Below, piece by piece: positions 9,347 through 38,535 of a DNA stretch of 41,537 bases. Source of the stretch: a virus; the IMG/VR virus record IMGVR_UViG_3300048588_000101, positions 1 to 41,537 of that record; one strand, given 5' to 3'. Each line of letters starts with the position of its first letter. The first letter of the stretch is position 1. A program made the position numbers and the translations under genes. Under the pieces are notes generated by a model, which ran no database searches, had not been told where the DNA came from, and saw only the letters and a list, made by a program, of their open reading frames with translations.

Positions 9347-9879
9347 GCGACATCGTCGGCGACCGCGAAAAATTCAGCCGGGGCTGGCAGAGCGGCATGC
9401 CGGAAACGCCGTGCGGATCAGGATCAACCATGGCGCGAACAGCCGCACAACGCGCCTGGCTGCCGGGCATGCTGCAGCGGCATGGCGTGCGCAGCATCGC
9501 CGACATCGGCGCCGGCGACCTGAACTGGATCCAGGCCACGGCCATCCCGGCTGGCGTGGCGTACACCGCATACGACCTGGTGCCGCGCCACCCGCGGGTG
9601 CGCGCCTTCGACCTGGTGACCGACATGCCGCCCGCCGTTGACCTGATCATGTGCCTGTGGGTGGTCAACCATTTGCCCTACGAGGCCGCCCGCAAGGCCA
9701 TCGCCAACCTCCGGGCCAGTGGCGCCAGGCTGCTGCTGATGACCGACCGGCCACGCTGGCACCACGAACAGCCGCCTGAGATCCACATGCCGTACATAGA
9801 AAAGCTGGACCTCGGCACCGATGCCGGTGACCGCCTGCTGCTGATCAGCCTGGCCGACCAGGCCGCGCCGCCATGCTGA
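9343..9879 (+). CDS. Class I SAM-dependent methyltransferase-like protein
   Basis: A 178-residue protein with a Rossmann-type methyltransferase core. Motif I reads SIADIGAGDLNWI at about residues 49-61, followed by an acidic strand end (AYDLVPRHPRV), then DLIMCLWVVNHLP as motif IV/V, typical of small-molecule or sugar methyltransferases. The N-terminus has a conserved-looking EKFSRGWQSGMPETPCG. It overlaps the radical SAM stop by four bases. It is shorter than most family members and lacks a clear substrate-binding domain. Confidence 0.78.
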   Translation: MSDIVGDREKFSRGWQSGMPETPCGSGSTMARTAAQRAWLPGMLQRHGVRSIADIGAGDLNWIQATAIPAGVAYTAYDLVPRHPRVRAFDLVTDMPPAVDLIMCLWVVNHLPYEAARKAIANLRASGARLLLMTDRPRWHHEQPPEIHMPYIEKLDLGTDAGDRLLLISLADQAAPPC

Positions 9880-10508
9880 CGGTGTGGGCGGTTCAGGTCG
9901 GCGAAAAGTACCCGCCGCATTACCTGCACAAGCTGCACAAAGCCGTGGCGCGCAACCTGCGCCAGCCGTTCGCGTTCGAAGTGCTGACCGACAACCCGGC
10001 GGCCGTTCCCGGTAAGGCGCACGCGCCAGACACCGCGCTGTGGGGATGGTGGCAGAAAACCGCCCTCTTCCACCTCACGCGGGACCAGCCGCCAACCCAC
10101 CAGAACCTGTACATCGACCTCGACAGCGTGATCGTGGGCGGCCTGGACGCGATGCTGGAGGCCCACCGCGGCGACCGCCTCGCCATGCCGGCGAATTGGG
10201 CACAAAGCGGCCACGGTGGCTGCCAGAGCAGCGTCATGATTTGGGCCGGTGGTGCGTACCCGGAGATCCGCGACGACCTGACCAGCGCCACCGCGACCGG
10301 CCTATGGGGCGACCAGGAGTGGATCACCATGCTTCTAGGCCAGCCAGGCCAGGGCAAGGTGGCCGCGATCGCGCACCCGACCGTGGTCAGCTACAAGTAT
10401 CACTGCCGGGAGACCGGCCAGCCGCCCGCCGGCGCCGCCATTGTGACCTTCCACGGCAAGCCCGACCCGCACGAGGTCGACGACAGCTGGGTGCGGGCAT
10501 GCTGGTAA
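9873..10508 (+). CDS. GT-A-like glycosyltransferase
   Basis: A 211-residue protein resembling GT8/GT32-type glycosyltransferases. The DxD-like metal/nucleotide-sugar motif is in LYIDLDSVIVGG (residues about 84-95). It is preceded by ALWGWWQKTALFHL, a pattern common in phage and bacterial glycosyltransferases of this type, and followed by SSVMIWAGG and WGDQEWITMLL acceptor-site-like blocks. The C-terminal IVTFHGKPDPHEV is also characteristic. No membrane segment is seen, so it is probably cytoplasmic. It overlaps the methyltransferase by seven bases. Donor and acceptor unknown. Confidence 0.78.
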   Translation: MLTVWAVQVGEKYPPHYLHKLHKAVARNLRQPFAFEVLTDNPAAVPGKAHAPDTALWGWWQKTALFHLTRDQPPTHQNLYIDLDSVIVGGLDAMLEAHRGDRLAMPANWAQSGHGGCQSSVMIWAGGAYPEIRDDLTSATATGLWGDQEWITMLLGQPGQGKVAAIAHPTVVSYKYHCRETGQPPAGAAIVTFHGKPDPHEVDDSWVRACW

Positions 10509-12225: not shown

Positions 12226-12731
12226 TGAGCAAGGGCAGCATCCGCGTCGACGGCCTGCGGGAAGTGCAAAAGCTGCTGGTCGAGCAGCTGCCAGCCAGGG
12301 CGCGCACCCGTGTGCTGGCCCGCGCCCTGCGCGCCGGCGCCGTGCCGATGCGCGACGCCGCCCGGATCAACGCCGCCGGCCTGGGCGGTTCCGGCGCCCT
12401 GGCGAAAAGCATGGGCATCTGGACCCGCAAGCGCAGCGGCCGGGATACCGCCGCCAGCGTCGAGATCGGGCCGAGGCGCAGCAGCAAGGCCGCCCTGGCG
12501 CGGTACTTTTCGTACTACGGGAAGAAACCGACGCCAAAACAGATGGCATCGGGGATCCGTCACGGCCACCTTGTCGAGTGGGGTACACGGCGCACGCCGC
12601 CGCGGCGATTCATGCAGCGCGCCTTTGATGCGCATGCCGAGCGCGCCGTCGAAATATTCCGCCGCGACATCGGTGGTTTTATCGAGCGCGAGGCGATCAA
12701 GATCGGCGCGCAAAACGGGGTAAAGCGATGA
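12222..12731 (+). CDS. HK97 gp10-like neck/tail protein
   Basis: A 169-residue protein of the HK97 gp10 family, acting at the head-tail interface. The core pattern is a leading GLREVQKLLVEQLPARAR, then an ARALRAGAVPMRDAAR helix, and the C-terminal HLVEWGTRRTPPRRFMQRAFD, which is the family hallmark (VE-G-T, P-R-PF/FM). The ATG at 12222 overlaps the preceding stop; an ATG three bases later is equally possible. The upstream in-frame ATG at 12198 lies within the previous gene. Confidence 0.87.
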   Translation: MMSKGSIRVDGLREVQKLLVEQLPARARTRVLARALRAGAVPMRDAARINAAGLGGSGALAKSMGIWTRKRSGRDTAASVEIGPRRSSKAALARYFSYYGKKPTPKQMASGIRHGHLVEWGTRRTPPRRFMQRAFDAHAERAVEIFRRDIGGFIEREAIKIGAQNGVKR

Positions 12732-13144
12732 GCCTGGAAACCGGCCTGTTTAACAAGCTGGCGACCACCACCGCCGTCGCCAACCTGGTGCGCAACGCGA
12801 CCAGCCCGGCCACCTATCGGATATTCCCGAGCATCATCCCGCAGGGCCAGGCCATGCCTGCGATCCGCTACGAGAAAATCAGCGTGGTGCGCCCGCAGAC
12901 ATTGGGCGGCCCGGCTGGATTCCTGCAGGCCAGGTTTCAAATTGATGTATGGGCCGACACCGACGCGCAGGTGACCGCCCTCGCCGATGCGGTGGTGACC
13001 GCAATCGACGGCACCCGCGGCGATTTCGGTGGTGCTACCATTCAGCACGGATACCTCGAGGATTTCGGCCGGCTGCCCGAGTTTGATGCCGAGGAAACCG
13101 GATACCGAGTCACCATGGACCTCATCATTTTGGCCGACGGATAG
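12728..13144 (+). CDS. Tail terminator/completion protein (DUF3168, HK97 gp11-like)
   Basis: A 138-residue protein, normal length for tail terminators that cap the tail tube. Typical blocks are YRIFPSIIPQGQAMPAIRYE, then ARFQIDVWADTDAQVTALAD, and VTMDLIILADG at the end. The ATG overlaps the gp10-like stop and the tail tube gene follows 12 bases later. Order connector, closure, gp10-like, terminator, tube matches HK97-type genomes. Confidence 0.87.
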   Translation: MSLETGLFNKLATTTAVANLVRNATSPATYRIFPSIIPQGQAMPAIRYEKISVVRPQTLGGPAGFLQARFQIDVWADTDAQVTALADAVVTAIDGTRGDFGGATIQHGYLEDFGRLPEFDAEETGYRVTMDLIILADG

Positions 13145-13156
13145 GAGACAGCAGAC

Positions 13157-13582
13157 ATGGCAACGAAAGCACGCGCAGGCGTAGGCGCAACACTGAGCAT
13201 GGGCAACGGCGCCAGCCCTGAAGTATTCACCGCCGTCGCCGGCATCGTGAACATCAGCGGCCCGGAACTGAGCGTCGAGGAACTGGAAGTCACCAGCCTG
13301 GACAGCACCGGCGGGTACAAAGAGTACATCCCAGGCATGAAGGACGGCGGCGCCGTTTCGTTCACAATGCATTTCAGCAACGACGCGCAGCAACGCAGCC
13401 TGCGGTCGAAGCTGGGCGCAGCCACCACAACCAACTTCCGCGTCACCCTGCCGACCAGCCCGGTCTGCACCATCAACTTTGCAGCCAACCTGACCAGCTG
13501 GTCGCAGGCCACCGAGGCCAACGCACCGATGACCGCCGACGTTAACCTGAAGATCAGCGGCGCGCCTGTTTTCACCCCGTAA
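13157..13582 (+). CDS. Major tail tube protein
   Basis: A 141-residue tube protein. Blocks VEELEVTSLDSTGGYKEYIP and GGAVSFTMHFSND, then TNFRVTLPTSPVCTINF and a final MTADVNLKISGAP, are typical of siphovirus tube subunits with the lambda gpV-like beta fold. The gene has its own GGAG ribosome site (near 13144) and lies before the tail chaperones and tape measure. A second gene at 23782 carries a closely related N-terminal domain. Confidence 0.9.
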   Translation: MATKARAGVGATLSMGNGASPEVFTAVAGIVNISGPELSVEELEVTSLDSTGGYKEYIPGMKDGGAVSFTMHFSNDAQQRSLRSKLGAATTTNFRVTLPTSPVCTINFAANLTSWSQATEANAPMTADVNLKISGAPVFTP

Positions 13583-13594
13583 GAGCAGAACCAT

Positions 13595-14002
13595 ATGACC
13601 AACACGCCAGCCCTCACCGCGGAGCAGACGCCAGCCCTCACCGCGGAGCAGACGCCAGCCCTCACCGCGGAGCAGATCCGCGCCGCACGCGACTACCTGA
13701 TCGAGCCGCTGGAGGTGCCGAAGTGGGGCGGCACCGTGTACCTGCGCAGCCTGAGCCTGCGCGATGCCCGCGTTTTTCAGCAGGTATCGGTGTCAGCCGC
13801 CGAGGGCACGTTCACCACCGACGACATGGTCAAGGTGGTGGCGGTGTGCCTGTGCGACGAACACGGCAAGCGCCTGTTTGGCGATGAGGCCATCGATGAG
13901 CTGGCCGCCAAAAACCTGGACGTGATCCGGCAATTGTTCGACAAGGCAGTGGTGGTGATCGGCCTGTCCAAGCAAGGCGTCGACGACGAAAAAAAAGAAT
14001 AG
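13595..14002 (+). CDS. Tail assembly chaperone, short form (gpG-like)
   Basis: A 135-residue protein upstream of the tape measure, in the position of lambda gpG. Residues 4-27 are three exact copies of TPALTAEQ, encoded by a perfect 24-bp tandem repeat. The core begins IRAARDYLIEPLEVPKWGG and contains LSLRDARVFQQV and VCLCDEHGKRLFGDEAI, typical of this family. The gene ends in GAA AAA AAA GAA TAG, an eight-A tract that permits a -1 ribosomal frameshift to make the longer chaperone. Confidence 0.85.
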   Translation: MTNTPALTAEQTPALTAEQTPALTAEQIRAARDYLIEPLEVPKWGGTVYLRSLSLRDARVFQQVSVSAAEGTFTTDDMVKVVAVCLCDEHGKRLFGDEAIDELAAKNLDVIRQLFDKAVVVIGLSKQGVDDEKKE

Positions 14003-14346
14003 CCGCAGACGACATCCTGCGGTTCGAGTACCGCCTGGCATTCCTGCTCGGGATGACCGTCCGGCAGCTGCGCGACAACATCGAGGATAGCCGCGAGCTG
14101 GCCGGGTGGATGGCATACCTGCAGATGGAGCCACCGGCGCAGGAGCAATGGCACCAGACCGCCATGCTGGCCCTCAACGCCCGCCGCATCGCCGGCGACA
14201 AGCGGGCCAAGCTGAAGGACTTTATGCCGCAACCACCACGCCCGAAGGTAGAATCACCGCAGGGCATGCTGGACAAAATGCGCGCCATGTTCGGTGGCAA
14301 ACCGAAGCCACCGAGCCTTCAGCTAGATGACGACGACGGAGAGTAA
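13595..14346 (+). CDS. Tail assembly chaperone, frameshifted long form (gpGT-like)
   Basis: A fusion made by a -1 slip on A AAA AAA at 13990-13996, just before the TAG at 14000. The shifted frame has no stop and continues as RIAADDILRFEYRLAFLLGM to 14346, giving about 250 residues. The added T-like domain contains RELAGWMAYLQMEP, a widespread motif of frameshifted tail chaperones. Such a fusion, next to the tape measure, is the standard arrangement that recruits tube subunits during tail assembly. An internal ATG at 14053 could be a start but leaves out conserved sequence. Confidence 0.82.
13604..13675 (+). repeat. 24-bp x 3 tandem repeat
   Basis: Three perfect tandem copies of a 24-base unit (13604-13627, 13628-13651, 13652-13675), each encoding TPALTAEQ in the tail chaperone. 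Copy changes keep the reading frame. Identity at DNA level implies recent expansion. Confidence 0.95.
13989..13996 (+). promoter_or_regulatory. -1 ribosomal frameshift slippery site
   Basis: Eight consecutive A residues. In the chaperone zero frame the codons are GAA AAA AAA GAA TAG, so both tRNA(Lys) can re-pair after a one-base backward slip. Continuation in the -1 frame is open for 116 codons. No clear downstream pseudoknot was identified by eye. Confidence 0.8.
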
Positions 14347-17352: not shown

Positions 17353-17772
17353 ATGCAAGCGGTTCAATACGAGGCCAGGCGCAGCCTTGTCAGCGGGCAC
17401 ACCGCCGGCGGCCTGTACATTCTCAACCTTCGCGTGACCAGCTGCGACCGGAAGCGCGATGTTGAGCGCACGCAGAAGCGCGCCATGAGCGGCAAGACAT
17501 TTACCATGTACACCCGCGGCGACGTGGTCTGGAGCTGCGAAACCATCCCGCTGAAAGGCGCCGACGCCGATGAGATGCGTGAGTTTCTCGACAGCGTCGA
17601 GGATGGGCAGGTGTTCCAATTCGACCCGCTGAATTGGGGTGGCGCGTCACCGGGCGCCTTCCGCAGCGTGGTGATCAGCAGCGACGGCTACACCGAAAGC
17701 CGCGTCACGCAACGAGGCGTGCCGAGCGACGATCATTACAAGTTCCGGTTTTCGTTCCACGAGCAGCCTTGA
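17353..17772 (+). CDS. Distal/minor tail protein
   Basis: A 139-residue protein between the tape measure and the large hub/fibre gene, the position of distal tail or minor tail proteins. Sequence is beta-rich and begins QAVQYEARRSLVSGHTAGG. It has no motif I can tie to a named family with certainty. FLDSVEDGQVFQFDPLNWGG resembles segments in small tail-tip proteins. Its stop overlaps the next ATG by one base. Confidence 0.72.
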   Translation: MQAVQYEARRSLVSGHTAGGLYILNLRVTSCDRKRDVERTQKRAMSGKTFTMYTRGDVVWSCETIPLKGADADEMREFLDSVEDGQVFQFDPLNWGGASPGAFRSVVISSDGYTESRVTQRGVPSDDHYKFRFSFHEQP

Positions 17773-20700
17773 TGCGCATCGACCCGCCAGACATTGCCAC
17801 CACCCGCGAAGGCCAGGCGCAGGAATGGCGCTACGCCATCCAGATCATGTTTGCCACGTCGACGCCGACCATCACGAGCCGCGACGGGATAGCCAACCTG
17901 CCGGGATCACCGATCGAAGGCGTGATCAAGGGCATTAGTTCGCGCAGCCAACAGGTGTGGCCGGATGAGGGACGCACCACCATCGGCCAGATCACGGTCG
18001 AGATTGTCGACATCAACGAGGCGCTGACCGACGAACTGCGCGACCAGCTGTACAACGACGACGCCGGGATCCGCGACAAGGAGCTGCGCGTGTTTGCCGG
18101 CGTCGGCGATGACTTCGCCGCCTTCACGCGGGTAGCAACCGCATTCGTCGATTCCTGCACCTACGACGCCGGCGTTTACACGATATCCGCCCGCGACCGG
18201 ACCCGCGAGCTGCGCGACAAGATCCTCGACCCGAAAACCGCCCGCATATCGGCGGCGGTCAGCGCAAGCGACACGACCATCACCGTGCGCACCACGGCCG
18301 GGTTCCACATGGTGGCGCACGGGCCATCGTTCGCCGACGCGCCAAGCGCGACAGTCGGCTACCTGCGGCACAAAAAGACCGGCGAGATCATGCGTTACAC
18401 GGGCATGACCGGGACCACCTTCACCGGCATCACCCGCGGCGTGTTCCGCACCAAGGCGGCAGCAATCGAGTTCAACCCGGCAGACCCGATCGAGCGATGG
18501 CCCGAGGTCGAGGAATACATCTACATCGAGCTGCCAGGGCCAGCGATGGCGATCGCCCTGATGACCGGCATCGTCAACATCAACGCATCGCCGATGCCGC
18601 GCCTGCCGGACCATTGGCACTTGGGAATGGACTGGAGCGCGGCGTTTGACCAGGCCAGCTGGCTGAACATCGGCACAGACCTGTGGAACCCGGCCGACTA
18701 CAGCGAAGGTTTCCCGCTGCGCCTGGCAGGATTCACCAGCGACACCGATGGCAAAAAGCTGATCGAGAGCGACGTGCTGCGCCTGCTCGGCCTGTACGCG
18801 CCGACCACCCCAAGCGGGCAGATCAGCCTGCGCCGGGTGGCGCGCATCACTGCCACGCAGGGATACGTCGCCGAACTGAACAGCGACAACGTGGTAAGCC
18901 ACGGCCCGCTGCGCTACGACCTGAGCGCCGTCCGCAACAAGTACCAGGTCCGGTACAACTACGACGGCGAGGAATTCACGCGATCGATGGCGGTGGTCGA
19001 CGCCGGCAGCATTGCCAGGAACGGCGAATCCGAAACCAGCACCCTGGAGTTCCGGTCGCTGACCACCGAGCGGCATACCGAGCGGCTGATCCGGGCGCGC
19101 CTCGAGGCGATGGGCGACCGATACGCCGACCCGCCGATCCGGCTGCAGACCAGGTGCACGCCGAACATGACCTGGCTGGAGATTGGCGACACCGTGCGCG
19201 TGCGCCTGAGCAGTGTGCAGAACCATGTCTCCATCGGCACCGGCACCCTCGACCAGACCTTCGAGGTGCAGAGCACCACCATCAACTGGACAACCGGCGA
19301 AGTCACGCTGGAATTGTTCGCCTCCGGGCGCCTGATCGAGCGCGGCGGCACCAACGAGCTGCCAGACTCCGTGCTTGCCGACAGCTGGTACACGAGCACC
19401 GGCACCAACATAAGCGGCCTGACCGGCTACGTCGCCGGCAGCCCGGCCCGTTTGACCGCCGACGTCACGCTGACCGGCACCAGCGACATCAACGATGCCG
19501 GATCGATCTGGTACCACGCCGGCGACCTGCAAATCGACGCCGGCGTCACGGTAACCATCCAGAACCAAGCCCAGCTGCGGGTGCGCGGATTTTTTACCAA
19601 CGCCGGCACCATCGACGGCGCTGGCCGCGGGCACCCCGGCGGGACCGACCCGGACACCGTCGGCGCGACCAGTACCGGATGGGCCAAGGCCACCGGCATC
19701 GCCGGCTACCTGGGGCCGACCCGGCCAGGCGCCGGCATGCTGTTTTTCTATTCCGACGGCAACGAGGTCGAGCATTACCGGCAGATCGACGCCGCCGTGA
19801 TCGAGGGCAAGGCGCGAGCCACCGCCGCGCCGTACCTGTCCCTGGCGACCGACAACGCCGGCGCGCTGACCACCAGCCTGCCAGCCGACCTTCGTGGCAC
19901 ATCGGGATCACCAGGCGCCTCGGTGATCAACCGGGTCGGCAACTTCACGTCGCCTCTTGGCAGCGGCGGAACGCTGTCGCGCAAGGGCGGCGCAGGCGGC
20001 GCATCGGGCGCCGGGCTGGCGATCATTTGCCGCGGCCTCGGGTTTTCAACATCCGGCGAGATCACACTGGCCGGCGCCGCAGGACAGCCGGGCCAGATCG
20101 GCGGCACGCCGGATATTTACGACGTCAACAAAAAAATCCATTGGGATCTTGCCGAGCAGGCCGGCGCCGGCGCGGGTGGGTTTCCAGGGTCCCTGCACAT
20201 CCTGCTCGACGGCGACGGCGTGCCGTACCCGGACATCAACGCGACGACCATCGACCTGACCGTCGGCACCACGCCGATACAAGGATATTCCGCCATACGC
20301 GCCGACAATGTCCGATTCAGGTCGGGATCGAATTACTACACCTGGCCGTCGTTGCGATGGGGCACAGACCTGCCAGGCGACGGCGACAGCATCTCGCCGC
20401 GGCCCTCATTCACCGGCATGAATTCCAGCCTGCCGCTGGCCGGTAATTTGTGGGCGGCGGCCTCGATGATTCAGTACATCCCGGCGACCGGCGAGGGCAC
20501 GCCGGACGCGGTACCAGCGCCGGTCGACCTCAACCTGACCGTGAACACCGGCAGCATTACCGCCAGCTGGCAGCGCAACGCAGGCTGGGACTTCGTCGAG
20601 GTGTTCGCCGCGACCAGCAACGACCGCGCCTACGCCGTCGAGGTTGGCGAGGCCGCAGCCTCAGCCTTCACGCACCAGCTGCCGGACGGCGGCCTGCGGT

Positions 20701-22646
20701 ATTACTGGATCCGGGCAGTGCGCGGCACCGGCGCGCAACGCCAGGTAAGCGCCTTCTATCCAAGCGGCGCGACCTCCGGTGTAAGCGCCACCGCACCGCC
20801 AAGCGGCATCACCACCACGCTGACCGCATCCAACGGCATGACATGGAACGGCGACACGACGACCAGCCCGACCACCTGGACGCCTAGCAGCCCGACCACC
20901 GACCTGACGTTTACCGTGTTTCAGTTTGGCAGCCAGATTGCCCAGGAGGTGGTGCGCGTCACCCTGGACACGAGCACCGGCGCCCTGACGTGGGCATACA
21001 TCACCAACGACGCCGGCGTGACCACCACGGCGTCGTCGACGCCAGCGAGCGTGATCACCTTTACCTTCGTGCACGTCACCAGCGGCCTGACCACACTGGC
21101 ATCCGTCACCGCTGTCCGTGGCGGCGGCGGAGCGGCAGGACCGCCAGGCGCCGACGGGGCAGACGGGGCCGATGGCGTGGACGGCGTGGACGGCGTGGAC
21201 GGAGCGCCAGGCGCGCCTGCCAGCCGGATCCTGTCCGTGCGGAACAACCGCAACGACATGTCGACCACCGTGGTCAACGGCTCGATGTACGTGCATGGTT
21301 TCGATTCGCTGGGCAACCCGATCGCGGGACCAGGTGAAATCGGGTTCAACGGCACGACCGCCGTGGTACCGAACGGCGCGATCGCCACATCGCAGAACCT
21401 CACCGAAGGATGGTTGCTTCTCGAAACAAACACCGGATCGACGCCCTTCTCCGGCGCCCGCATCGGCGCCGCAAGGAAAAGCCGAGCCGGGTGGGTCTAC
21501 GATAACGGCACCGCCTGGACGGCGTTCACCGCCACGGCAACGATGGTGGCGTTCGGCGCCTACAGCCGAGTGGCCGGCGTGATCGTCGGCGCCGCCGTGA
21601 TCGGCAACGCGCTGGCCCTCGGCGCCGTACCCTACGAGAACGCGCACCAGGTACAGGCCGGCGACATCCAGTCGGGTGCCATCAGCGACCTGGACGCATT
21701 CACGTCGACAATGCGGCCGACGGCGGTGCTTTCGTCGTTGCCAGGACTGCCGGCAGCAGCCTACCCAAACGGCGCTCTGATTTACCTGACCAGCGACAAA
21801 AAAGTGTACCGCGCCGATTACGCGAGGTCGCCGATCGCGTGGACCGCAGCGGTCGACGGCGCCGACATCGTGGCCGGCACCGTGACGGCCGCAGCTCTGG
21901 CTGCTGACATCGTGCTGGCGACGCTGTTCCGCACTGCCGGCAGCGGTAACCGCGTCGAGCTGGAAGGCAACGGTCACGACTTCCCGTTCTGGATCGGCTC
22001 GGGGACGAAGGGCAGCACCAGCGGCGCGCCGGGGAGCGGTGCGAAGGTTTATTACGATGAACCCGCTGATGAGTTTGTTGTCACTGGGAGACTTGAGGCG
22101 TCGGTGGTCGGATGGGATGCCGACGAAGCATTCATGGCGGAGACGGAGAGCGGAAAAAAGGCCGCCCTTGCCATCGCCCTCTCCGCAACCGGTGTCAATA
22201 ATGTCAGCACCGCCTACGATGGCTCGTACCATACGCTTATCACTCTGCCCACGATATTTCACCCGAGCTACGCGGCCGGTGGAACAATCGCAGGGCGGCG
22301 GCTACAAGCCGCCGATCAGCCGTTCTTGCTGACGTGGTTCATTCACGCGGCGAACTGGGCATCCGGTGCCAACACCCCGAGTTTCCGCTTCTACTATAAA
22401 TACGATGGCGGCACCGCAACCGTGTATGACACAACAAATTTCACTTCACTGGATGACGGAGAAAGTGACGTGCGGTTTCTCACGCTGCATCGAAAAGCGA
22501 AGGCGACTGGATGGAGTCAGACACTGCAAATAGCCTGTGAATGCATCGGGTCGTCGTCAGCGGGGAATGCGTACCTGCGGGGGATTGGAATGATTGCTCT
22601 GCCGAACATGGGGGCCGCTGGCATTGTGGCGGCTGAACTGACATGA
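17772..22646 (+). CDS. Tail hub / host-specificity fibre protein with FN3 and collagen-like parts
   Basis: A 1624-residue tail-tip protein. Residues 1 to about 540 resemble a baseplate-hub type domain with mixed alpha/beta structure (DLSAVRNKYQVRYNYDGEEF near residue 390). Residues about 540-880 are Gly/Ser/Thr-rich and beta-helical looking. An FN3-like domain spans about 917-1010. A collagen-like Gly-X-Y run occupies 1123-1149 (GPPGADGADGADG onward). The last 200 residues, after base 22040, are encoded by visibly less GC-rich DNA and form the probable receptor-binding tip. The ATG at 17772 is chosen because upstream in-frame codons overlap the previous gene. Function: tail tip assembly, host binding. 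Confidence 0.85.
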   Translation: MRIDPPDIATTREGQAQEWRYAIQIMFATSTPTITSRDGIANLPGSPIEGVIKGISSRSQQVWPDEGRTTIGQITVEIVDINEALTDELRDQLYNDDAGIRDKELRVFAGVGDDFAAFTRVATAFVDSCTYDAGVYTISARDRTRELRDKILDPKTARISAAVSASDTTITVRTTAGFHMVAHGPSFADAPSATVGYLRHKKTGEIMRYTGMTGTTFTGITRGVFRTKAAAIEFNPADPIERWPEVEEYIYIELPGPAMAIALMTGIVNINASPMPRLPDHWHLGMDWSAAFDQASWLNIGTDLWNPADYSEGFPLRLAGFTSDTDGKKLIESDVLRLLGLYAPTTPSGQISLRRVARITATQGYVAELNSDNVVSHGPLRYDLSAVRNKYQVRYNYDGEEFTRSMAVVDAGSIARNGESETSTLEFRSLTTERHTERLIRARLEAMGDRYADPPIRLQTRCTPNMTWLEIGDTVRVRLSSVQNHVSIGTGTLDQTFEVQSTTINWTTGEVTLELFASGRLIERGGTNELPDSVLADSWYTSTGTNISGLTGYVAGSPARLTADVTLTGTSDINDAGSIWYHAGDLQIDAGVTVTIQNQAQLRVRGFFTNAGTIDGAGRGHPGGTDPDTVGATSTGWAKATGIAGYLGPTRPGAGMLFFYSDGNEVEHYRQIDAAVIEGKARATAAPYLSLATDNAGALTTSLPADLRGTSGSPGASVINRVGNFTSPLGSGGTLSRKGGAGGASGAGLAIICRGLGFSTSGEITLAGAAGQPGQIGGTPDIYDVNKKIHWDLAEQAGAGAGGFPGSLHILLDGDGVPYPDINATTIDLTVGTTPIQGYSAIRADNVRFRSGSNYYTWPSLRWGTDLPGDGDSISPRPSFTGMNSSLPLAGNLWAAASMIQYIPATGEGTPDAVPAPVDLNLTVNTGSITASWQRNAGWDFVEVFAATSNDRAYAVEVGEAAASAFTHQLPDGGLRYYWIRAVRGTGAQRQVSAFYPSGATSGVSATAPPSGITTTLTASNGMTWNGDTTTSPTTWTPSSPTTDLTFTVFQFGSQIAQEVVRVTLDTSTGALTWAYITNDAGVTTTASSTPASVITFTFVHVTSGLTTLASVTAVRGGGGAAGPPGADGADGADGVDGVDGVDGAPGAPASRILSVRNNRNDMSTTVVNGSMYVHGFDSLGNPIAGPGEIGFNGTTAVVPNGAIATSQNLTEGWLLLETNTGSTPFSGARIGAARKSRAGWVYDNGTAWTAFTATATMVAFGAYSRVAGVIVGAAVIGNALALGAVPYENAHQVQAGDIQSGAISDLDAFTSTMRPTAVLSSLPGLPAAAYPNGALIYLTSDKKVYRADYARSPIAWTAAVDGADIVAGTVTAAALAADIVLATLFRTAGSGNRVELEGNGHDFPFWIGSGTKGSTSGAPGSGAKVYYDEPADEFVVTGRLEASVVGWDADEAFMAETESGKKAALAIALSATGVNNVSTAYDGSYHTLITLPTIFHPSYAAGGTIAGRRLQAADQPFLLTWFIHAANWASGANTPSFRFYYKYDGGTATVYDTTNFTSLDDGESDVRFLTLHRKAKATGWSQTLQIACECIGSSSAGNAYLRGIGMIALPNMGAAGIVAAELT

Positions 22647-23269: not shown

Positions 23270-23785
23270 GTGCTAGACCCGGAACAGCTGCGGCGTTTTG
23301 TCGTTCGGCCGACCCTCGAGGAACTTGGCATGTGGAGCCAGGCGGCGGAGAACCTGGTTATGGGCACCGCCGCGCAGGAAAGCCACCTGACGTACATCGA
23401 CCAGAAGGAACCAGCCGGACGCCGGCCGCAGATCGGGCCGGGCCTCGGCCTGTGGCAAATGGAAGCGGCAACGCACGACGACATCTGGAAAAACTGGCTG
23501 ACCGCCAGGCCGGCCATCGGCAAGCGGGTGCTCGAGGTGGCCTGCGTGTGGACCAGGGCCGCCGCGCTGTTTTCCGTCGACCCCGGCGTGCTGGTTTACA
23601 ATTTGCGCTACGGCGCCGCCATGTGCCGGATCCACTACCGGCGGCGACCGGAACCGCTGCCAGCGGCCGACGACGTGGCTGGGCTGGCCGACTACTGGAA
23701 GCGCCACTACAACACCAGCGCAGGCGCGGGGCGCATTGAGCAATTCACTGCCAATTACCGGCGGTTCATAGGAGTCGCAGCATGA
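23270..23785 (+). CDS. Transglycosylase-like virion or lysis protein
   Basis: A 171-residue protein with a lysozyme/SLT-like fold signature. AENLVMGTAAQESHLTYID carries the probable catalytic Glu37-Ser38, followed by GLGLWQMEAATHDDIWKNWL, as in soluble lytic transglycosylases. The C-terminal half has the conserved ADYWKRHYNTSAGAGRIEQF segment. Cognates occur beside tail genes of many phages, where such proteins may locally open peptidoglycan during entry or act as endolysin. No signal peptide is visible. The start is a GTG just behind the previous stop with GAGAGG upstream. Confidence 0.68.
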   Translation: MLDPEQLRRFVVRPTLEELGMWSQAAENLVMGTAAQESHLTYIDQKEPAGRRPQIGPGLGLWQMEAATHDDIWKNWLTARPAIGKRVLEVACVWTRAAALFSVDPGVLVYNLRYGAAMCRIHYRRRPEPLPAADDVAGLADYWKRHYNTSAGAGRIEQFTANYRRFIGVAA

Positions 23786-25779
23786 CAACCAAAGCCCGCG
23801 CCGGCGTCGGCGCAACCTTCGAAGTCGACAGCGGCAGCGGATACACCTACGTCGCCGACCTGGTCAGCATTGGCGGCCCTGAGATTGCCGTGGAGCAGGT
23901 CGAGGTAACCAGCTTGGACAGCACGGCCGGGTACAAGGAATACATCCCAGGATCCCTGGACGGCGGCACCGTCAGCCTAACGCTGCACTTCAGCAACAGC
24001 GCCGCGCAACGCGCCCTGCTGGCAATGGTTGGTAGCATCGACGTCGCGTCCTTTCGCGTTCTTCTTCCGACCAGCCCGACCTCCCACTACACCTTTACCG
24101 GCAGCGTCACGGCATGGACGCAGAGCGCAGAACCTAACACGCCGATGGTGGCAGAACTGACCTTCAAAACCAGCGGCGCCATCATCACAACTACCGGCGC
24201 CTTTCCGTTGGCATTTTCCATCCCGGCGGCCGTTACCTACACGGCTGGCGGCGTCACCACATACAGCGGCGAGGATGCGCCAGACGACGGTGTCAATTCG
24301 TTCACGGGATACTATTCACCTGTTGGAACTGTCGATGTTCATGCCGGTTACAGCAACGCGACAGAAGCGCGGGATACCCGCGTGCATTTCACGTTCCCTG
24401 GATCTGCCGTTGCAGGGCAGGCTGGGAATGGCATAACGTTAAAAACGAACGCGGTGGTGCATTCCGCCATGCTGCGATTCAAATGTTCATACCGAGGCAG
24501 CGGTGTGACAACGGGCCGTTTCTACGCAAAGAAGGTTCAGCAGAGCACCGTCGTCGCGGGATTGGATGCGTCATCGCAATGGCTGGCAGCAGGGCGAACA
24601 ACGTCGGCATATGTGACATGGACGCCATCCGTCGGGACTGCGGCCGTCGACGTGACTCCGCTGATCAACGAGCTGCTCGGATCAGCGGAGTGGGATGAAA
24701 CGGACGCCACGGTGCAGTTCTTCTTTCGGTCTGACACGCCGCCAGGCGACATCACGGCGGCGCCGGACCCGAATGTTTATCGTATTTCCTTTGATAGATA
24801 CGATGCGCCGACGTTCCTCACTTCCCTTTCAATCAGCGCAACGCAGGCCGACGGAGATCCAGAGACAGCCGCCATCACAAGCGGGCGCGTGATCAACTAC
24901 TGGCCGATCAACGCGGCAGACCTCGCGCTGGCAAACAGGGTCCGATACGTGGTGCAGAACGCATCGAACGGCCGCAGGAGCAGCACCGTGCTGGCGTCGA
25001 ACTTCAGTGGTTTGACCGGCACGACGCACAACACGACATGGAAAACCACCGCCCTGATCGGAAGCATTTTCGAGCTTGGAACGTGGGACATTGATGCGCA
25101 GGCGGCGATCTTTGGCGACGCCTACGCAAACCACGCAGATCTGCTGGCCGCCGGGACGGTTTCTAGCCTGCTTGGATACACCAACGGGTGGATAACGAAT
25201 TTCCGCGACCGAGACTACCTGTTGCTCGCATCGTTCGACTACGCAACGACAGGGGAAACCAGGCTGGTATTCGACCTATGGAATGCAACAGCGCCGCTGC
25301 AGAATTGCCTGTACGTCGTAGCGAACGGCGCCACCCAGCGAGTAGAGGCAGAATGCCTGAGCGCCGGCGCAGCAAGCGCAAGCACGCAGGGCGCGAAGGC
25401 AACTCACCTTGCATTTGCGACCGGCGTCGCGCCGGCGGCAAATCGCACACTACGAATCGCGCTGTTTTGGGATCACCTGACTTTGACGTTCAACTGGCGC
25501 GTATGGACCACAGACAGAGTGACGGGCGCGACGGCGCTGGTTGGCTCTGGATCGTGGAGAACAGCGAGCATCATGAACCCGGATTCAAATACAACGGCAC
25601 AACGCAATATGCGCAGCCTTGTCGGGTTCGGCTGGGTATTCCCGGAAGGCGCCTACGGCACCGCGCTGATCGAGTTCACGCAGCCTGCAGCAGCGGTATG
25701 GGTGGACACCAGCAACTGGATGACAGCCGCATGGGTGCGCGGGGTCAAGTCGCTGGATCCGCGGCTGATGGCCGCATGA
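23782..25779 (+). CDS. Tail-tube paralogue fused to long C-terminal domain
   Basis: A 665-residue protein. Residues 1 to about 135 clearly match the major tail tube protein at 13157: KARAGVGAT, then EVTSLDSTAGYKEYIPG, GGTVSLTLHFSN and FRVLLPTSPTSHYTF. Residues about 140-665 are Thr/Ala/Ser-rich, beta-strand heavy and unmatched, and encoded partly by less GC-rich DNA. Likely a minor tube or tail-decorating subunit with an exposed carbohydrate-binding or adhesion domain. Its ATG overlaps the previous stop. A duplicated tube gene 10 kb away from the first is unusual. Confidence 0.8.
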   Translation: MTTKARAGVGATFEVDSGSGYTYVADLVSIGGPEIAVEQVEVTSLDSTAGYKEYIPGSLDGGTVSLTLHFSNSAAQRALLAMVGSIDVASFRVLLPTSPTSHYTFTGSVTAWTQSAEPNTPMVAELTFKTSGAIITTTGAFPLAFSIPAAVTYTAGGVTTYSGEDAPDDGVNSFTGYYSPVGTVDVHAGYSNATEARDTRVHFTFPGSAVAGQAGNGITLKTNAVVHSAMLRFKCSYRGSGVTTGRFYAKKVQQSTVVAGLDASSQWLAAGRTTSAYVTWTPSVGTAAVDVTPLINELLGSAEWDETDATVQFFFRSDTPPGDITAAPDPNVYRISFDRYDAPTFLTSLSISATQADGDPETAAITSGRVINYWPINAADLALANRVRYVVQNASNGRRSSTVLASNFSGLTGTTHNTTWKTTALIGSIFELGTWDIDAQAAIFGDAYANHADLLAAGTVSSLLGYTNGWITNFRDRDYLLLASFDYATTGETRLVFDLWNATAPLQNCLYVVANGATQRVEAECLSAGAASASTQGAKATHLAFATGVAPAANRTLRIALFWDHLTLTFNWRVWTTDRVTGATALVGSGSWRTASIMNPDSNTTAQRNMRSLVGFGWVFPEGAYGTALIEFTQPAAAVWVDTSNWMTAAWVRGVKSLDPRLMAA

Positions 25780-26276
25780 GCACGCGGTGGGTATGCGCGG
25801 TGATCGCCATCGCCGCCCTGCAGATTGCCGGCGCCGCCGAGCTGCGCGTGGCAGGCGGCGCGGCCCTGGCCGACGTCAGGCACCTGACCGAAGCCGGGCC
25901 GGCCCTCGAGGTCGGTATCGACCACCAGGTCGACCATGGCGCATGGCGCGCCACCGTCGCGTGGATCGGTGAACAGGACGTCACCACCAGCGGCGCGATC
26001 CACCAGCGCGGCACCATCGGCGATTATTGGCTGGCCGGCGCACAAGGCGTCTACCAGCACCAGGTCGGCCGCGTTCGCCTCGAGGCCGGCGCCGGGCTGG
26101 CCTGGCGCACCGAGGCCAGAAACGTCCACTACCTGCTGCCGAGCCGGGCGAACTTCAACCTAACGCTGGGCCTGCGCATCGGCCGCACCACCATCGAGGC
26201 GCGCCACATCAGCAACGGCTGGACCAGCGACGGAAACAAGGGACAAAACTGGTTGCAGGTCGGGATCGCCTTTTAA
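25776..26276 (+). CDS. PagL-like outer-membrane barrel (lipid A deacylase family)
   Basis: A 166-residue protein with an N-terminal signal peptide (ends near IAGAAEL). The C-terminal RHISNGW (His144, Ser146, Asn147) followed by a final amphipathic strand ending in Phe (NWLQVGIAF) matches PagL-type lipid A 3-O-deacylases, whose catalytic residues include His and Ser of an H-x-S-N motif plus a downstream Glu. Here the position aligning with that Glu is Asn158, next to Gln157, so activity is uncertain. If functional it would modify host LPS, possibly blocking superinfection or weakening the outer membrane. It overlaps the previous gene by four bases; the upstream frame is a shadow. Confidence 0.72.
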   Translation: MSTRWVCAVIAIAALQIAGAAELRVAGGAALADVRHLTEAGPALEVGIDHQVDHGAWRATVAWIGEQDVTTSGAIHQRGTIGDYWLAGAQGVYQHQVGRVRLEAGAGLAWRTEARNVHYLLPSRANFNLTLGLRIGRTTIEARHISNGWTSDGNKGQNWLQVGIAF

Positions 26277-28759: not shown

Positions 28760-28875
28760 CCGCCGGCCGGCCAGGCAACGTCAGGCCGCATCGAGGATCG
28801 TCGCGCCGGGCCGCCGGCCGGCCAGGCAACGTCAGGCCGCATCGAGGATCGTCGCACCGGCCCGCCGGCCGGCCA
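28760..28875. repeat. 51-bp tandem repeat, 2.3 copies
   Basis: Copies begin at 28760, 28811 and 28862; the first 45 bases of each unit (CCGCCGGCCGGCCAGGCAAC onward) are identical in the first two, and the third covers only about the first 15. Units are GC-rich with the palindrome GCCGGC. It lies upstream of the early promoter module. Confidence 0.85.
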
Positions 28876-28888
28876 GCACCGAGGCGGC

Positions 28889-29010
28889 AAAACCACCAGG
28901 CGGGCGAAACATTACCATTTGAAAAAAGCCGCAAAAGGGCTTGCCAGTAGGCGAGGATAGGCGCAATGTCGAAACCGTAGAGCAAGCCACCAGCAACCGG
29001 GAGAGACAAA
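28889..29010 (+). promoter_or_regulatory. Early promoter-leader module, copy A
   Basis: A candidate promoter with -35 TTGCCA (28941-28946), 17 bases, then CAATGT (28964-28969), so a weak -10. The flanking block, including GCGAAACATTACCATTT upstream and GTCGAAACCGTAGAGCAAGC downstream, recurs at 34267-34391 with small indels. The two copies cannot be aligned as protein in one frame, so conservation is likely for DNA or RNA function. The first early gene follows. Confidence 0.55.
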
Positions 29011-34064: not shown

Positions 34065-34432
34065 GCACCGGCACCCGGTACATCCGCCTCACGCTGACCA
34101 TCCCGCAGGCCCGCGGCCTGCTGGCCCTGACCGGGCAAGGCGCCGCCGACGCCAAGGAATACCGAGCATGGGCCAGGGCGACCCTCGGCGCGCCAGCCAG
34201 CGAGGGCGCCGCATACCGGGCCGCGGGCAAGCTGCAGGCCGCGGTCGAGGCCCACAGATCCACCCGAAAAACCGCCAGGCGGGCAAACATTACCATTTCA
34301 AATAAAGGCAAGAAAACGCTTGACGGTAGGCAAGAGTGGCGCAATATCGAAACCGTAGAGCAAGCCACCACCACCAACCGGGAGACAGACCATGACCGCC
34401 ACCACCACCGCGCCGATCGAAGCCCTCGGTGA
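34061..34432 (+). CDS. Hypothetical protein, C-terminus inside promoter repeat
   Basis: A 123-residue protein with the conserved-looking start TRYIRLTLTIPQARGLLALT. Residues from about 72 on are encoded by the duplicated promoter-leader DNA (34267-34391) and run into the next gene by 41 bases, so the last 50 residues are probably not under protein selection. The N-terminal part resembles short DNA-binding-type proteins. Confidence 0.55.
   Translation: MSTGTRYIRLTLTIPQARGLLALTGQGAADAKEYRAWARATLGAPASEGAAYRAAGKLQAAVEAHRSTRKTARRANITISNKGKKTLDGRQEWRNIETVEQATTTNRETDHDRHHHRADRSPR
34267..34391 (+). promoter_or_regulatory. Early promoter-leader module, copy B
   Basis: Candidate promoter with -35 TTGACG (34320-34325), 16 bases, then CAATAT (34342-34347). 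It is better than copy A. The block GGCAAACATTACCATTTCAA upstream and TCGAAACCGTAGAGCAAGCC downstream matches copy A at 28889-29010 except for small indels. A CACCACCACCAACCGGGAG ribosome leader ends the module. It should drive the genes from 34392 on. Confidence 0.62.
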
Positions 34433-36047: not shown

Positions 36048-36220
36048 GCGATAAATTACTAGAAGATGCCCAGCCGCACGAGGGGCTAGAGGCCGAGAAC
36101 AATCGGTTACGGAAGGCGCTGAAAGAGATCGCTGGTAGCTGGGGGTGGCTCGACACAGACAAAGAAGCTCGACGGCAAATGCTGAACATAGCAATCCGCG
36201 CACTGGAGCAGAAGCCGTGA
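36044..36220 (+). CDS. Short helical protein ending EQKP
   Basis: A 58-residue protein (MSDKLLEDAQ... ends RALEQKP). AENNRLRKALKEIAG is a probable coiled coil. It has AT-rich codons (TTA, CTA, AAT) unlike its left neighbours. Both ends are 4-base ATGA/GTGA overlaps within the repeated boundary sequence. Function unknown; similar leucine-zipper-like small proteins are common in exchangeable phage cassettes. Confidence 0.6.
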   Translation: MSDKLLEDAQPHEGLEAENNRLRKALKEIAGSWGWLDTDKEARRQMLNIAIRALEQKP

Positions 36221-36876
36221 CCTCCCGCCCCATCCTCTTTTCGGCACCGATGATCCGCGCCTTGCTGGCCGGGGAGAAAACGCAGACGCGCAGGATCGTG
36301 AAGCCGCAGCCGCCACGGGATCACTCCCCGCTGGTAATAGACCGTTTTTGCCCGACAGTGATAGACCGGTATGGCGATGAGCAGCCCGGCGACGAGGTGT
36401 TTGGAGTCACCACGGAAAATGGGGAGTGGTGCTTACGCTGCCCCTACGGCCAGCCGGGAGACACGCTCTGGGTGCGTGAGACCATATTTGTTCAGCCGGA
36501 TCTGTGGGAAGTTGGCCACGGACCGCAGCCGGGCCACTACGCCGCTGACATCGACGACCCTCGACAGGTTGAGGACTACATCTGCAAGCCCTCCATCCAC
36601 ATGCCCCGCTGGGCATCGCGCCTGACCCTACGCATAACCGACGTGCGCGTGCAGCGGTTGCAGGAGATCAGCGAGGCGGATGCGCGGGCGGAGGGAGCGC
36701 CGCTCGAATTAAGGCTGCTTGATTCAGTCAGGCTGGGCGCAACCGCATCGCATACGGGCGGGTTTGAACGGCTTTGGGAATCCATCCACGGCCCCGGCTC
36801 ATGGGCTGCGAATCCGTGGGTGTGGGCGCTGACCTTCGATGTCATCAGGGCGAACGTGGATGAGCAGAAGCCGTGA
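36217..36876 (+). CDS. ASCH-domain-like protein
   Basis: A 219-residue protein. ILFSAPMIRALLAGEKTQTR followed by IVKPQP, PYGQPGDTLWVRET, and IHMPRWASRLTLRITDVRVQ plus LQEISEADARAEG, are hallmarks of the ASCH-like phage proteins. ASCH domains resemble PUA domains and bind RNA or act on modified cytidines. The GTG at 36217 overlaps the previous stop. C-terminus EQKP comes from the boundary repeat. Codon use is more AT-rich than the phage core, suggesting acquisition. Confidence 0.72.
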   Translation: MTSRPILFSAPMIRALLAGEKTQTRRIVKPQPPRDHSPLVIDRFCPTVIDRYGDEQPGDEVFGVTTENGEWCLRCPYGQPGDTLWVRETIFVQPDLWEVGHGPQPGHYAADIDDPRQVEDYICKPSIHMPRWASRLTLRITDVRVQRLQEISEADARAEGAPLELRLLDSVRLGATASHTGGFERLWESIHGPGSWAANPWVWALTFDVIRANVDEQKP

Positions 36877-36882
36877 GGCCGC

Positions 36883-37200
36883 CTAAACCCCCGTCACCGG
36901 CATCCCCGCCAGCCACCATTTATGCACATCAAAACACGGGCAGTCCTTCGGCGGATCACCCGGCCTGATAACGTCCCTATGCCCCGTCACCTGCGCCCCT
37001 GGATACATCGCCAGCAGGAACTTGATCGTGGTCCTGAGCGCCGCCCATTGGCCCGGTGTGTAGTTCACTTCTGACTTGCCCTTTGCATCAATCCCGCCGA
37101 CCAGACAGACGCCGATCGAGTCCGAGTTTCGACCGAGTACATGACTGCCGACCTTATCCAAATGCGGGCCGCGCTTCGTGAGGCGAGGGAGGATGGTAGG
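36883..37200 (-). pseudogene. 5'-truncated T7-lysozyme-like amidase fragment, antisense
   Basis: Reading leftward, the translated frame DKVGSHVLGRNSDSIGVCLV with GGIDAKGK, then VTGHRDV and CPCFDV, matches the C-terminal two thirds of T7 lysozyme-like N-acetylmuramoyl-L-alanine amidases. The frame is blocked upstream by a stop at 37201-37203. The N-terminal part with the first zinc ligand and the catalytic Tyr is missing, so it is probably non-functional. It is the only clear minus-strand gene. The 3' end has VRP-like 'IRPGDPPKDCPCF' intact. Confidence 0.7.
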
Positions 37201-37206
37201 TTATGA
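37141..37206 (+). CDS. Possible 21-residue ORF opposite amidase fragment
   Basis: MTADLIQMRAALREAREDGR plus Leu, ending in TGA that overlaps the next ATG. Its first bases resemble the start of the next gene (a shared 13-base CCGACCTTATCCA at 37148-37160 and 37207-37219). It may be a remnant from recombination and not a working gene. Confidence 0.25.
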   Translation: MTADLIQMRAALREAREDGRL

Positions 37207-37412
37207 CCGACCTTATCCAGAAAGCCCGAAAGGAGTGGTGCGATCCATACGTTGTCAATCCGCTCTGTGCGAAAGATGCGCACTACAAAACCTGCCCGCC
37301 AGAAGTTGTGGCCGCGCTGCTGGATGTGCTGGATGAGGTCATGCGCGCCGATTCCTGCGTCTCGTGCTTCGGGCACAGGGTCTATAAACACAGGCCCGGT
37401 TGCATCGTCTAA
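37203..37412 (+). CDS. Small Cys-rich protein, possibly prematurely stopped
   Basis: A 69-residue protein with Cys at 13, 22, 31, 52, 55 and 67 (VSCFGHRVYKHRPGC), possibly zinc-binding. After its TAA, the same frame continues without a stop as AAQKTITRALEGPG to a TGA at 37455-37457, exactly overlapping the next ATG. This is the usual cassette boundary arrangement, so the TAA may be a recent premature stop. Confidence 0.55.
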   Translation: MTDLIQKARKEWCDPYVVNPLCAKDAHYKTCPPEVVAALLDVLDEVMRADSCVSCFGHRVYKHRPGCIV

Positions 37413-37453
37413 GCCGCTCAAAAGACCATCACCCGCGCACTGGAGGGGCCAGG

Positions 37454-37786
37454 ATGAGCAACTACAAACAACTTCCAGACGGACGCTGGCAGAAGCATAT
37501 AGTCCCAGAGGAGGCGCTTCCGCAGTACGTCACAGCCCATTACATGCGGGATAACCACACGTTCCTCTCGCTCCCGCTGGATATAGAGGACGCCCTGCAA
37601 TTACTGCGGAACGAGCGTGACGCCGGGTGGACTTACGGCATGTTGTGCGGGCGACCGACAGGCGTAGTGCCAGAGCCTATACATGCGCGTGGGCTTGAAT
37701 ACTGGGATTCTTTCGAGCGAGCAGCCCGTTATTGGTTGACTGCGGCAATTGCTAAGAGCAAACCACCGAAGGAGCAGAAACCATGA
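37454..37786 (+). CDS. Hypothetical cassette protein ending EQKP
   Basis: A 110-residue protein. NYKQLPDGRWQKHIVPEEA at the start and ERAARYWLTAAIAKSKPPKE at the end. No family recognised. Start ATG 37454 lies in GGCCAGGATGA, overlapping the stop of the extended upstream frame. EQKP end from the boundary repeat. Confidence 0.62.
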   Translation: MSNYKQLPDGRWQKHIVPEEALPQYVTAHYMRDNHTFLSLPLDIEDALQLLRNERDAGWTYGMLCGRPTGVVPEPIHARGLEYWDSFERAARYWLTAAIAKSKPPKEQKP

Positions 37787-37821
37787 CCGACCCAATCACC
37801 CGCGCACTGGAGGGGAAATGA
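37783..37821 (+). CDS. 12-residue ORF between boundary repeats
   Basis: MTDPITRALEGK, overlapping the previous stop and the next ATG by four bases each. It consists almost only of boundary sequence: a start of one cassette gene and the end (ITRALEG) of another. Best read as the scar of a deleted gene. Confidence 0.4.
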   Translation: MTDPITRALEGK

Positions 37822-38177
37822 CAGACTACAAGAGCATGTTTGAGCAGGCGGTGCGCACGCTGGCCGCGATTGATGAGGCGCTTGGAATCGGTGATGACGG
37901 ATGCGGCGACCCCGACCAGACGCTGACAGCGATTGCTGAACTGAAGGCGGCAAAAGTTGGCACTGGCAGGACGGCGACAGTAACCCGAGAAATGATTGGC
38001 GCTGCGCATGATGTGATGCTGGCGAAGGGCGACTTCGTTTTGTCCGCCAACCTGCTGGAGCGAATCTATCTGGCAATGGAGCAGGCAGCGCCACCACCGC
38101 AAACGCCGTTTGATACCTGCCCGACGTGTGAGGCGCTGGCCCGCACGGTGATGATGGATCAGACGGGTGCGGCATAA
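37818..38177 (+). CDS. Hypothetical cassette protein
   Basis: A 119-residue protein, helical at both ends. TDYKSMFEQAVRTLAAIDEA at the start and FDTCPTCEALAR near the end, where two Cys may bind metal. TVTREMIGAAHDVMLAKGD is also helical. Function unknown. Confidence 0.6.
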   Translation: MTDYKSMFEQAVRTLAAIDEALGIGDDGCGDPDQTLTAIAELKAAKVGTGRTATVTREMIGAAHDVMLAKGDFVLSANLLERIYLAMEQAAPPPQTPFDTCPTCEALARTVMMDQTGAA

Positions 38178-38326
38178 CTTCGACATTGAGGGCACCATCA
38201 GCGGCGGGCAAGATCCACACGCAGATTTATGGCATCGGCGGCCCGCTCAACGAAATACGCGCACGAAACGACGAACAAGAACGGCAGATGGCGCAGTTTA
38301 TTAAGGAGCAGATGGCATGTTCGTAG
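38167..38326 (+). pseudogene. Frameshifted short gene remnant
   Basis: From the GTG at 38167 the frame reads RHNFDIEGTISGG, then continues in the next frame (one base extra near 38207-38209) as KIHTQIYGIGGPLNEIRARN with DEQERQMAQFIKEQMA, to a TAG at 38324. The two parts make one sensible protein of about 53 residues only if a single base is removed. It may be a sequencing error or a decayed gene. Confidence 0.4.
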
Positions 38327-38535
38327 ATATTCGGAAGCTCACCAGGCCGCAGGTGAAAGAAGTTCTCGAAGCGGCCGGATGGGCATGGGATGACGCCAAG
38401 AGCATTGACGGTGAGCAGAACCGCCGCGATTGCGAGTCGCTAGTAAATGAGGCGTACATGCGCGGATTTAAGGCTGGCATCAACGCAAAGACTCAGGTGG
38501 CGGCTGTTGTTGCTGCTTGGGATGCTGACGCCTAA
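38317..38535 (+). CDS. Small hypothetical protein
   Basis: A 72-residue protein with LTRPQVKEVLEAAGWAWDDA, a likely helical DNA- or protein-binding segment, and NEAYMRGFKAGINAK. Preceded by AAGGAG (38303-38308). Function unknown. Confidence 0.6.
   Translation: MFVDIRKLTRPQVKEVLEAAGWAWDDAKSIDGEQNRRDCESLVNEAYMRGFKAGINAKTQVAAVVAAWDADA

Follow-up and report, generated by a model that had tools for sequence, protein, structure and literature searches.

An uncultured virus, whose record of 41,537 bases was analysed over its full length (hereafter the window), encodes two tail-tube proteins, and the longer of these, TTP2, is probably a minor tube subunit that carries host-surface-binding domains, i.e. 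an adhesin-bearing building block of the tail. In the mechanism that we favour, the N-terminal domain of TTP2 would take a place in the hexameric tube ring through a conserved N-terminal arm and stacking loop, either scattered among copies of the major tube protein, TTP1, or forming a dedicated ring, and two further domains, C1 and C2, would project outwards as flexible arms. These arms could bind host-surface glycans weakly but with high avidity, so that the phage would linger on the cell until its tip reaches the receptor. As for dosage, TTP2 could be kept scarce by having a gene of its own, one that starts inside the preceding gene, and this would stand in for a programmed frameshift. The minor-subunit part of this reading draws on the paralogy of the two proteins, their grouping in one clade within the lineage, a gpV-like model of the N-terminal domain, the conservation of arm and loop, synteny with a near relative (G001, IMGVR_UViG_3300048838_000379) and, by analogy, the long tube proteins gp17.1* of SPP1 and TpeX of lactococcal 936 phages.

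The two open reading frames, of 665 (23782-25779) and 141 residues (13157-13582), are present as the earlier note on this DNA had claimed, and so is the match between them. In a pairwise BLASTP, 75 of 140 positions are identical (54%, E 7e-48) and residues 1-137 of TTP2 are covered, the blocks KARAGVGAT and GYKEYIPG being common to both proteins. The likeness extends to the DNA, with 194 of 266 bases identical (73%, E 2e-17) in a match that starts 5' of both start codons, runs into the genes and includes ATAGGAG, an AGGAG ribosome-binding site; only two other stretches of the window are self-similar at E <= 1e-5. The note had also seen TTP2 as a separate long paralogue rather than a frameshift product, which holds, its own ORF lying 10.6 kb downstream of TTP1 and ruling out a frameshift within the TTP1 gene. 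As for repeats further on, a 66-base repeat (97%) occurs in two overlapping-register copies at 28760-28876, and a dispersed repeat of ~120 bases (83%) at 28889-29004 and 34268-34385, the latter repeat also resembling parts of G001.

Only TTP1 passes the Pfam tail-tube models (Phage_TTP_12, 42 bits; cut-off 26.1). TTP2 has no Pfam match at E <= 1, and its G001 orthologue scores 27.3 bits, below the cut-off of 28.4, although such curated cut-offs are a naming rule and not a defining property. TTP2 matches PHROG 158, 'major tail protein' (E 1.2e-16), and our tube profile A3 (E 1.5e-53; A3 itself includes TTP2), and is a homologue of the phage tail-tube proteins (PHROG 158/Phage_TTP/gpV-like). Promoter and terminator scans made no distinction between the two genes, and neither a tRNA nor an Rfam family at the gathering threshold was found. 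In a 70-row tree, TTP1 and TTP2 of the window and of G001 fall together in a single clade (100/98), which shows that TTP2 originated from a tube-gene duplication inside the present phage lineage; the duplicate kept the tube domain.

Table 1. Coordinates of TTP1, TTP2 and the surrounding tail genes in the window.
Feature	Position	Strand	Basis
Tail completion/terminator protein	12728..13144	+	PF11367, 53.7 bits; PHROG 347
TTP1, major tail-tube protein, 141 aa, without extra domain	13157..13582	+	Phage_TTP_12, 42 bits
Tape measure protein, 999 aa	14350..17349	+	PHROG 9483, E 1.1e-49
Large tail-tip/fibre protein, variable C-terminus	17766..22646	+	PHROG 19394 (tail fiber), E 4.7e-6
PHROG 3108 gene (PHROG function unknown)	23270..23785	+	E 1.3e-36; overlaps TTP2 start (ATGA)
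Ribosome-binding region of TTP2 (ATAGGAG)	23768..23781	+	resembles that of TTP1 at 13141-13156
TTP2, long tail-tube paralogue, 665 aa	23782..25779	+	PHROG 158 (major tail protein), E 1.2e-16; orthologue in G001
TTP2 N-terminal domain, residues 1-137, predicted tail-tube fold	23782..24192	+	54% to TTP1; model; Foldseek
TTP2 domain C1, residues ~161-356	24262..24849	+	hhalign to IQEIVDRPGW phage domain; beta-rich, carbohydrate-binding-module-like model
TTP2 domain C2, residues ~353-665	24838..25776	+	most variable part; conserved DPRLMA tail at end
PagL-like (lipid A deacylase-like) gene	25776..26276	+	PF09411, 24.9 bits (cut-off 23); overlaps TTP2 stop (ATGA)

The gene order runs from the terminator (12728) through TTP1, ORFs 13595 and 14053, the tape measure gene (14350), the tail-tip gene (to 22646; its start at 17766 was chosen inside a listed ORF, 17634-22646), two small ORFs and the PHROG 3108 gene to TTP2 and the PagL-like gene, TTP2 overlapping its neighbours on both sides by ATGA. 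ORFs 13595 and 14053 are presumably the tail chaperone region, judging from their position and the lambda G/T order; a run of eight A at 13989-13996, near the end of ORF 13595-14002, may be the slippery sequence at which ribosomes shift into 14053-14346, as is usual for tail chaperones. Between the head and tail genes lies a glycosyltransferase-like gene (9873-10508, + strand; PHROG 1962, E 3.4e-18). The PagL-like product begins with a hydrophobic stretch resembling a signal and contains an HISN motif, phmmer finding no relative for it in the PDB. A lipid A deacylase carried by a phage would point to a Gram-negative host.

It is at this border, where TTP2 overlaps the start codon of the PagL-like gene, that one might place a reading in which TTP2 stays outside the virion, either as a decoy, soluble or held at the surface, or as a moron protein with another purpose that simply reuses the tube fold. 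We consider this improbable, since the TTP2 sequence shows no recognisable signal peptide, its N-terminal domain retains the assembly elements, the gene adjoins tail genes and relatives of C1 occur in tail proteins. That the window stems from an uncultured virus could likewise raise the suspicion that TTP2 is an assembly chimera or a decaying, functionless duplicate. Such an origin is hardly credible and appears largely refuted by G001, whose contig holds an intact orthologue of 646 residues in the same place, the frame having stayed open in both genomes despite strong divergence.

Turning to structure, a full-length AlphaFold2 model of TTP2, built on a 14-row alignment, has a pLDDT of about 80 over the greater part of residues 10-138, dropping to very low values at residues 34-60 and in the C-terminus (under 40 in nearly all blocks there). 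Phage tail tubes are the best PDB matches of the N-terminal domain in Foldseek, including YDC107 (9mfe, 1.9e-6), lambda gpV (7t4f, 2.3e-6) and others, so that the model, with low confidence for the loop at 34-60, predicts the fold of a tube subunit, in line with the earlier expectation of a tube fold. Identity between TTP1 and TTP2 is concentrated in the N-terminal arm (1-12) and a loop (32-62), at 35 of 43 positions (81%) vs 40 of 95 elsewhere (42%), an excess reached by one of 138 circular shifts, namely the observed one alone. The G001 pair behaves alike (37/43 vs 37/95), and a long tube copy from another phage, L051, holds the two elements less well (18/43 vs 33/98). Arm and loop are the most conserved part across the whole tube family as well, which counts against a TTP2-specific reading of these figures. 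The available text of a review describes the long loop of the tube protein as touching the N-terminus of the next ring (PMC9022992); equating that contact loop with residues 32-62 of TTP2, as we infer, arm and loop are likely the ring-stacking parts.

A translated comparison of the window with G001, using mechanically chosen ORFs, gives 74-100% identity for the head and tail genes ahead of the variable end of the tip protein, 97% for TTP1, and 85% (23270) and 86% (26330) for the genes flanking TTP2 in the compared list. Identity is 72% in the N-terminal domain of TTP2, 41% in C1 (over 196 positions), 32% in C2 (over 325 positions) and 27% in the last 126 residues of the tail-tip protein, and ORFs 22643 and 23062 have no match in G001 at all. 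The variable parts of the tail region are therefore the TTP2 extension, the end of the tail-tip protein and the pair of small ORFs that comes next. Several ORFs near the right end of the window also have no match, and a five-ORF block (36145-38535) is without counterpart in the otherwise similar G001. These identities support the view that the extension is fast-evolving, as expected of a surface appendage, and the host-binding part of our reading follows from where the divergence peaks, in C1, C2 and the tail-tip C-terminus, while TTP1 is nearly unchanged. High divergence fits host-surface binding, but recombination or module exchange without host selection could also give it. A diversity-generating repeat was rejected as an explanation for the variable C-terminus, a template-like copy being absent from the rest of the window (best match of 26 bases, E 0.011).

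The drift of the N-terminal domain, stronger than that of TTP1, is also what would be expected if only one interface had been kept, as in a single dedicated ring at one tail end (tip or neck), where TTP2 would act as an adaptor or collar with six arms instead of being scattered. Genes for side fibres often lie after the tail-tip genes, where TTP2 is found, and the long copy in L051 adjoins the tail-terminator position, before the short tube gene, which both speak for such a ring. We regard it as a possible but rather unlikely arrangement, considering that TTP2 retains the arm as well as the loop, the two elements of ring stacking, and that no terminator- or Dit-like feature was found in it.

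What a minor subunit of this kind would display are the about 525 residues beyond its tube domain. The earlier note had called this part unmatched, which stands for C2 and has to be given up for residues ~161-356, where profile-profile comparison connects C1 with a family of phage domains. Relatives were sought through what we take to be a phage domain with the motif QEIVDRPGW; 31 loci (L165-L195) were fetched by a DNA pattern for it, and 21 of them entered alignment A7. C1 of the window and G001 together matched A7 with an hhalign probability of 96.4 (E 1.4e-9, 139 columns), and singly with 78.7 (window) and 95.3 (G001), the controls (C2, reversed C1, ten column shuffles and the tube profile) giving <=2.5%. 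In a plain HMM search, with a profile free of window rows, the G001 protein was found at E 0.0023, the window protein was not listed at E <= 0.05 and three unrelated ORFs came up alike at 0.0013 to 0.012; once window and G001 are added, E and W alone remain invariant in the motif IQEIVDRPGW. By profile comparison, C1 can be placed in a recurrent, uncurated phage domain with this signature, which would merit its own family, none of the 21 members matching Pfam. A scan of ten full ORFs from the family found Amidase_2 in one, Prophage_tail with many tail families in another, a minor-tail-protein match in a third and a separate CBM96 domain in a fourth, the rest being uninformative.

The structure prediction proposed earlier for residues 140-665 succeeded in part: the C-terminus was unusable in the full-length model, and C1 alone could be modelled (22 rows; pTM 0.69, mean pLDDT 66.5) as a beta-rich domain. 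Its best match in VIA is a chondroitin-sulfate-binding module (8wab; Z 9.9, rmsd 4.2, 147 aligned), followed by an alginate-binding module (7vbo; Z 8.2, rmsd 4.0, 140 aligned) that is not clearly set apart, since the next, unrelated rows stand at 7.6 and below. Foldseek returned nothing at E <= 0.001 from the PDB and one uncharacterised phage protein at 7e-4 from BFVD, and comparison of the C1 family profile with one CBM96 segment (from L168), a single-sequence test, gave a probability of 3.3%. Because of the modest pLDDT, the poorly separated second VIA row and the blank in the PDB, the modelled link between C1 and carbohydrate binding is suggestive. It is nonetheless on the two best VIA matches, both carbohydrate-binding modules, and on the occurrence of the C1 family in tail proteins and in an amidase protein that the adhesin part of our reading draws.

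For C2, no match was found in Pfam or the PDB, one weak row each appearing in NCBIfam (E 0.13) and PHROG (E 0.11), and searches of the TTP2 C-terminus against Pfam, NCBIfam, PHROG and the PDB gave nothing usable. Among the candidates discarded are (i) eight Klebsiella records that tblastn of the window C-terminus picked out of the phage records (best E 3), taken as chance since the one region looked at is on the wrong strand of its gene, (ii) two records found in the same way with the G001 C-terminus (E 5) and (iii) a relation between C2 and the L051 extension (hhalign 0.1% and 0.2%).

How widespread are such paralogues? Profile A3 matched 58 of 59 records (28 + 31), with two copies in four (the window, G001, G036 and G037), and 159 of 165 loci and window sources, which yielded 111 distinct tube ORFs, three of them longer than 400 residues; these counts describe a sample, many sources being partial, mutually overlapping contigs and one scan covering 80 of 386 relatives. 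Among 398 genomes of the phylum of G348 (Aliikangiella), A3 matched 65 (longest open frame 283 aa) and PF06199 matched 77 (longest 364 aa, from a below-cut-off match), and no close pair of tube copies was present bar one copy split by a stop. PF16461 matched one of 286 genomes of the phylum of G030.

The remaining two-copy records (G036 and G037 from IMG/VR, loci L051 and L052) resemble the window in having a long tube paralogue, of 564 residues, beside a 141-residue tube protein. They differ in that the long copy is placed just ahead of the short one and bears another extension, with a weak match to Laminin_G_3 (22.1 bits, under the cut-off of 27.6). A single clade of all long copies is rejected (AU p 0.0059) and a sister relation of the L051 long copy to its own short copy is not (p 0.39), the position of the long row being unsure because of a very long branch and a bootstrap that had not settled. 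On these phylogenetic tests, the long copy of L051/L052 would have formed independently. Together with the actinobacteriophages discussed below, these cases lead us to propose, tentatively and with some reserve, that phages repeatedly and independently recruit duplicates of the tube gene for tail decoration, resulting in heterotypic tubes in which adhesin density is set by the expression of the second gene and not by frameshifting, and in which the appendage is free to diverge with the main tube frozen.

If TTP2 is indeed in the tail, this would have implications reaching beyond one phage: (i) host-binding devices would not be confined to the tip, (ii) a duplicated tube gene would be a modular port for large, fast-evolving adhesins, (iii) tube rings would tolerate a second, diverged subunit and (iv) the dosage of a second gene could replace frameshifting. 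A long tube paralogue would moreover be a simple marker for decorated tails in uncultured phages.

Among known systems, SPP1 is like the present phage in having two forms of tube protein, the longer with an extra C-terminal domain. In the accessible parts of the papers, gp17.1* is described as a +1 frameshift product of the single gene, N-terminally identical in sequence to gp17.1 and with an 87-residue extension containing an FN3 domain (PMC8718954, PMC6316719); it makes up one in four subunits (ratio 1:3; PMC8718954), is dispensable and is thought to bind the cell surface (PMC8718954, PMC6316719). TTP2, in contrast, comes from a separate, diverged gene and has an extension of about 525 residues. 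The MTP-TpeX proteins of lactococcal 936 phages, according to the text available, are tail proteins of 470-530 residues made by programmed frameshift, whose TpeX part carries a BppA-type carbohydrate-binding module on the tail and, fused to GFP, binds host cells host-specifically (PMC6669499). They share with TTP2 a large tube protein with an extra domain (carbohydrate-binding-module-like in model only for C1), but differ in the frameshift, the BppA-type module and the Gram-positive host. In lambda gpV and T5 pb6, Ig-like domains decorate the tube, as far as the review text available goes (PMC9022992). The decoration there lies inside the one tube protein, whereas TTP2 is a second gene. We know of no second tube gene in lambda or T5.

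Comparable too are actinobacteriophages with separate major-tail-protein paralogues, such as DizzyRudy (gp17, gp19 and gp20) and Shiba (gp16, gp18 and gp19), which like the present phage can have long C-terminal extensions. DizzyRudy gp19 (L196:7259-9019; 586 aa, annotated 'major tail protein') is 51% identical to gp17 over its first 211 residues, its extension is akin to minor tail proteins from other phages (one from Zooman has 37% identity to part of it), and tblastn finds it at 510 places in 274 records, some of them matching the extension alone; Shiba gp18 (L199:4501-6540; 679 aa, annotated 'minor tail protein') has an N-terminal part 45% identical to gp16. Rima, Secretariat and Miek have two major tail proteins each (262-294 aa), a long one being absent from the stretch shown, and Count has three (215-294 aa); two major tail protein genes are in print, in the text available, for Damascus and for cluster DJ phages, whose pair differs by 51 C-terminal residues. 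The DizzyRudy/Shiba-type proteins have no detectable sequence similarity to the TTP2 tube family or to C1-C2, and their genes, unlike TTP2, sit together ahead of the tape measure gene. No description of a long tube paralogue as tail decoration was found in the literature searched, subscription papers falling mostly outside it. The actinobacteriophage cases made us give up the notion that a long tube paralogue in a gene of its own has no precedent, and of the 'different solution' seen in the earlier note the separate gene without frameshift survives and the novelty does not. Since the actinobacteriophages, in another tube family and with a paralogue of 586-679 residues in some, and L051/L052 in IMG/VR provide precedents for separate-gene decoration and similar doubled tail genes, TTP2 is a variant and not a new principle.
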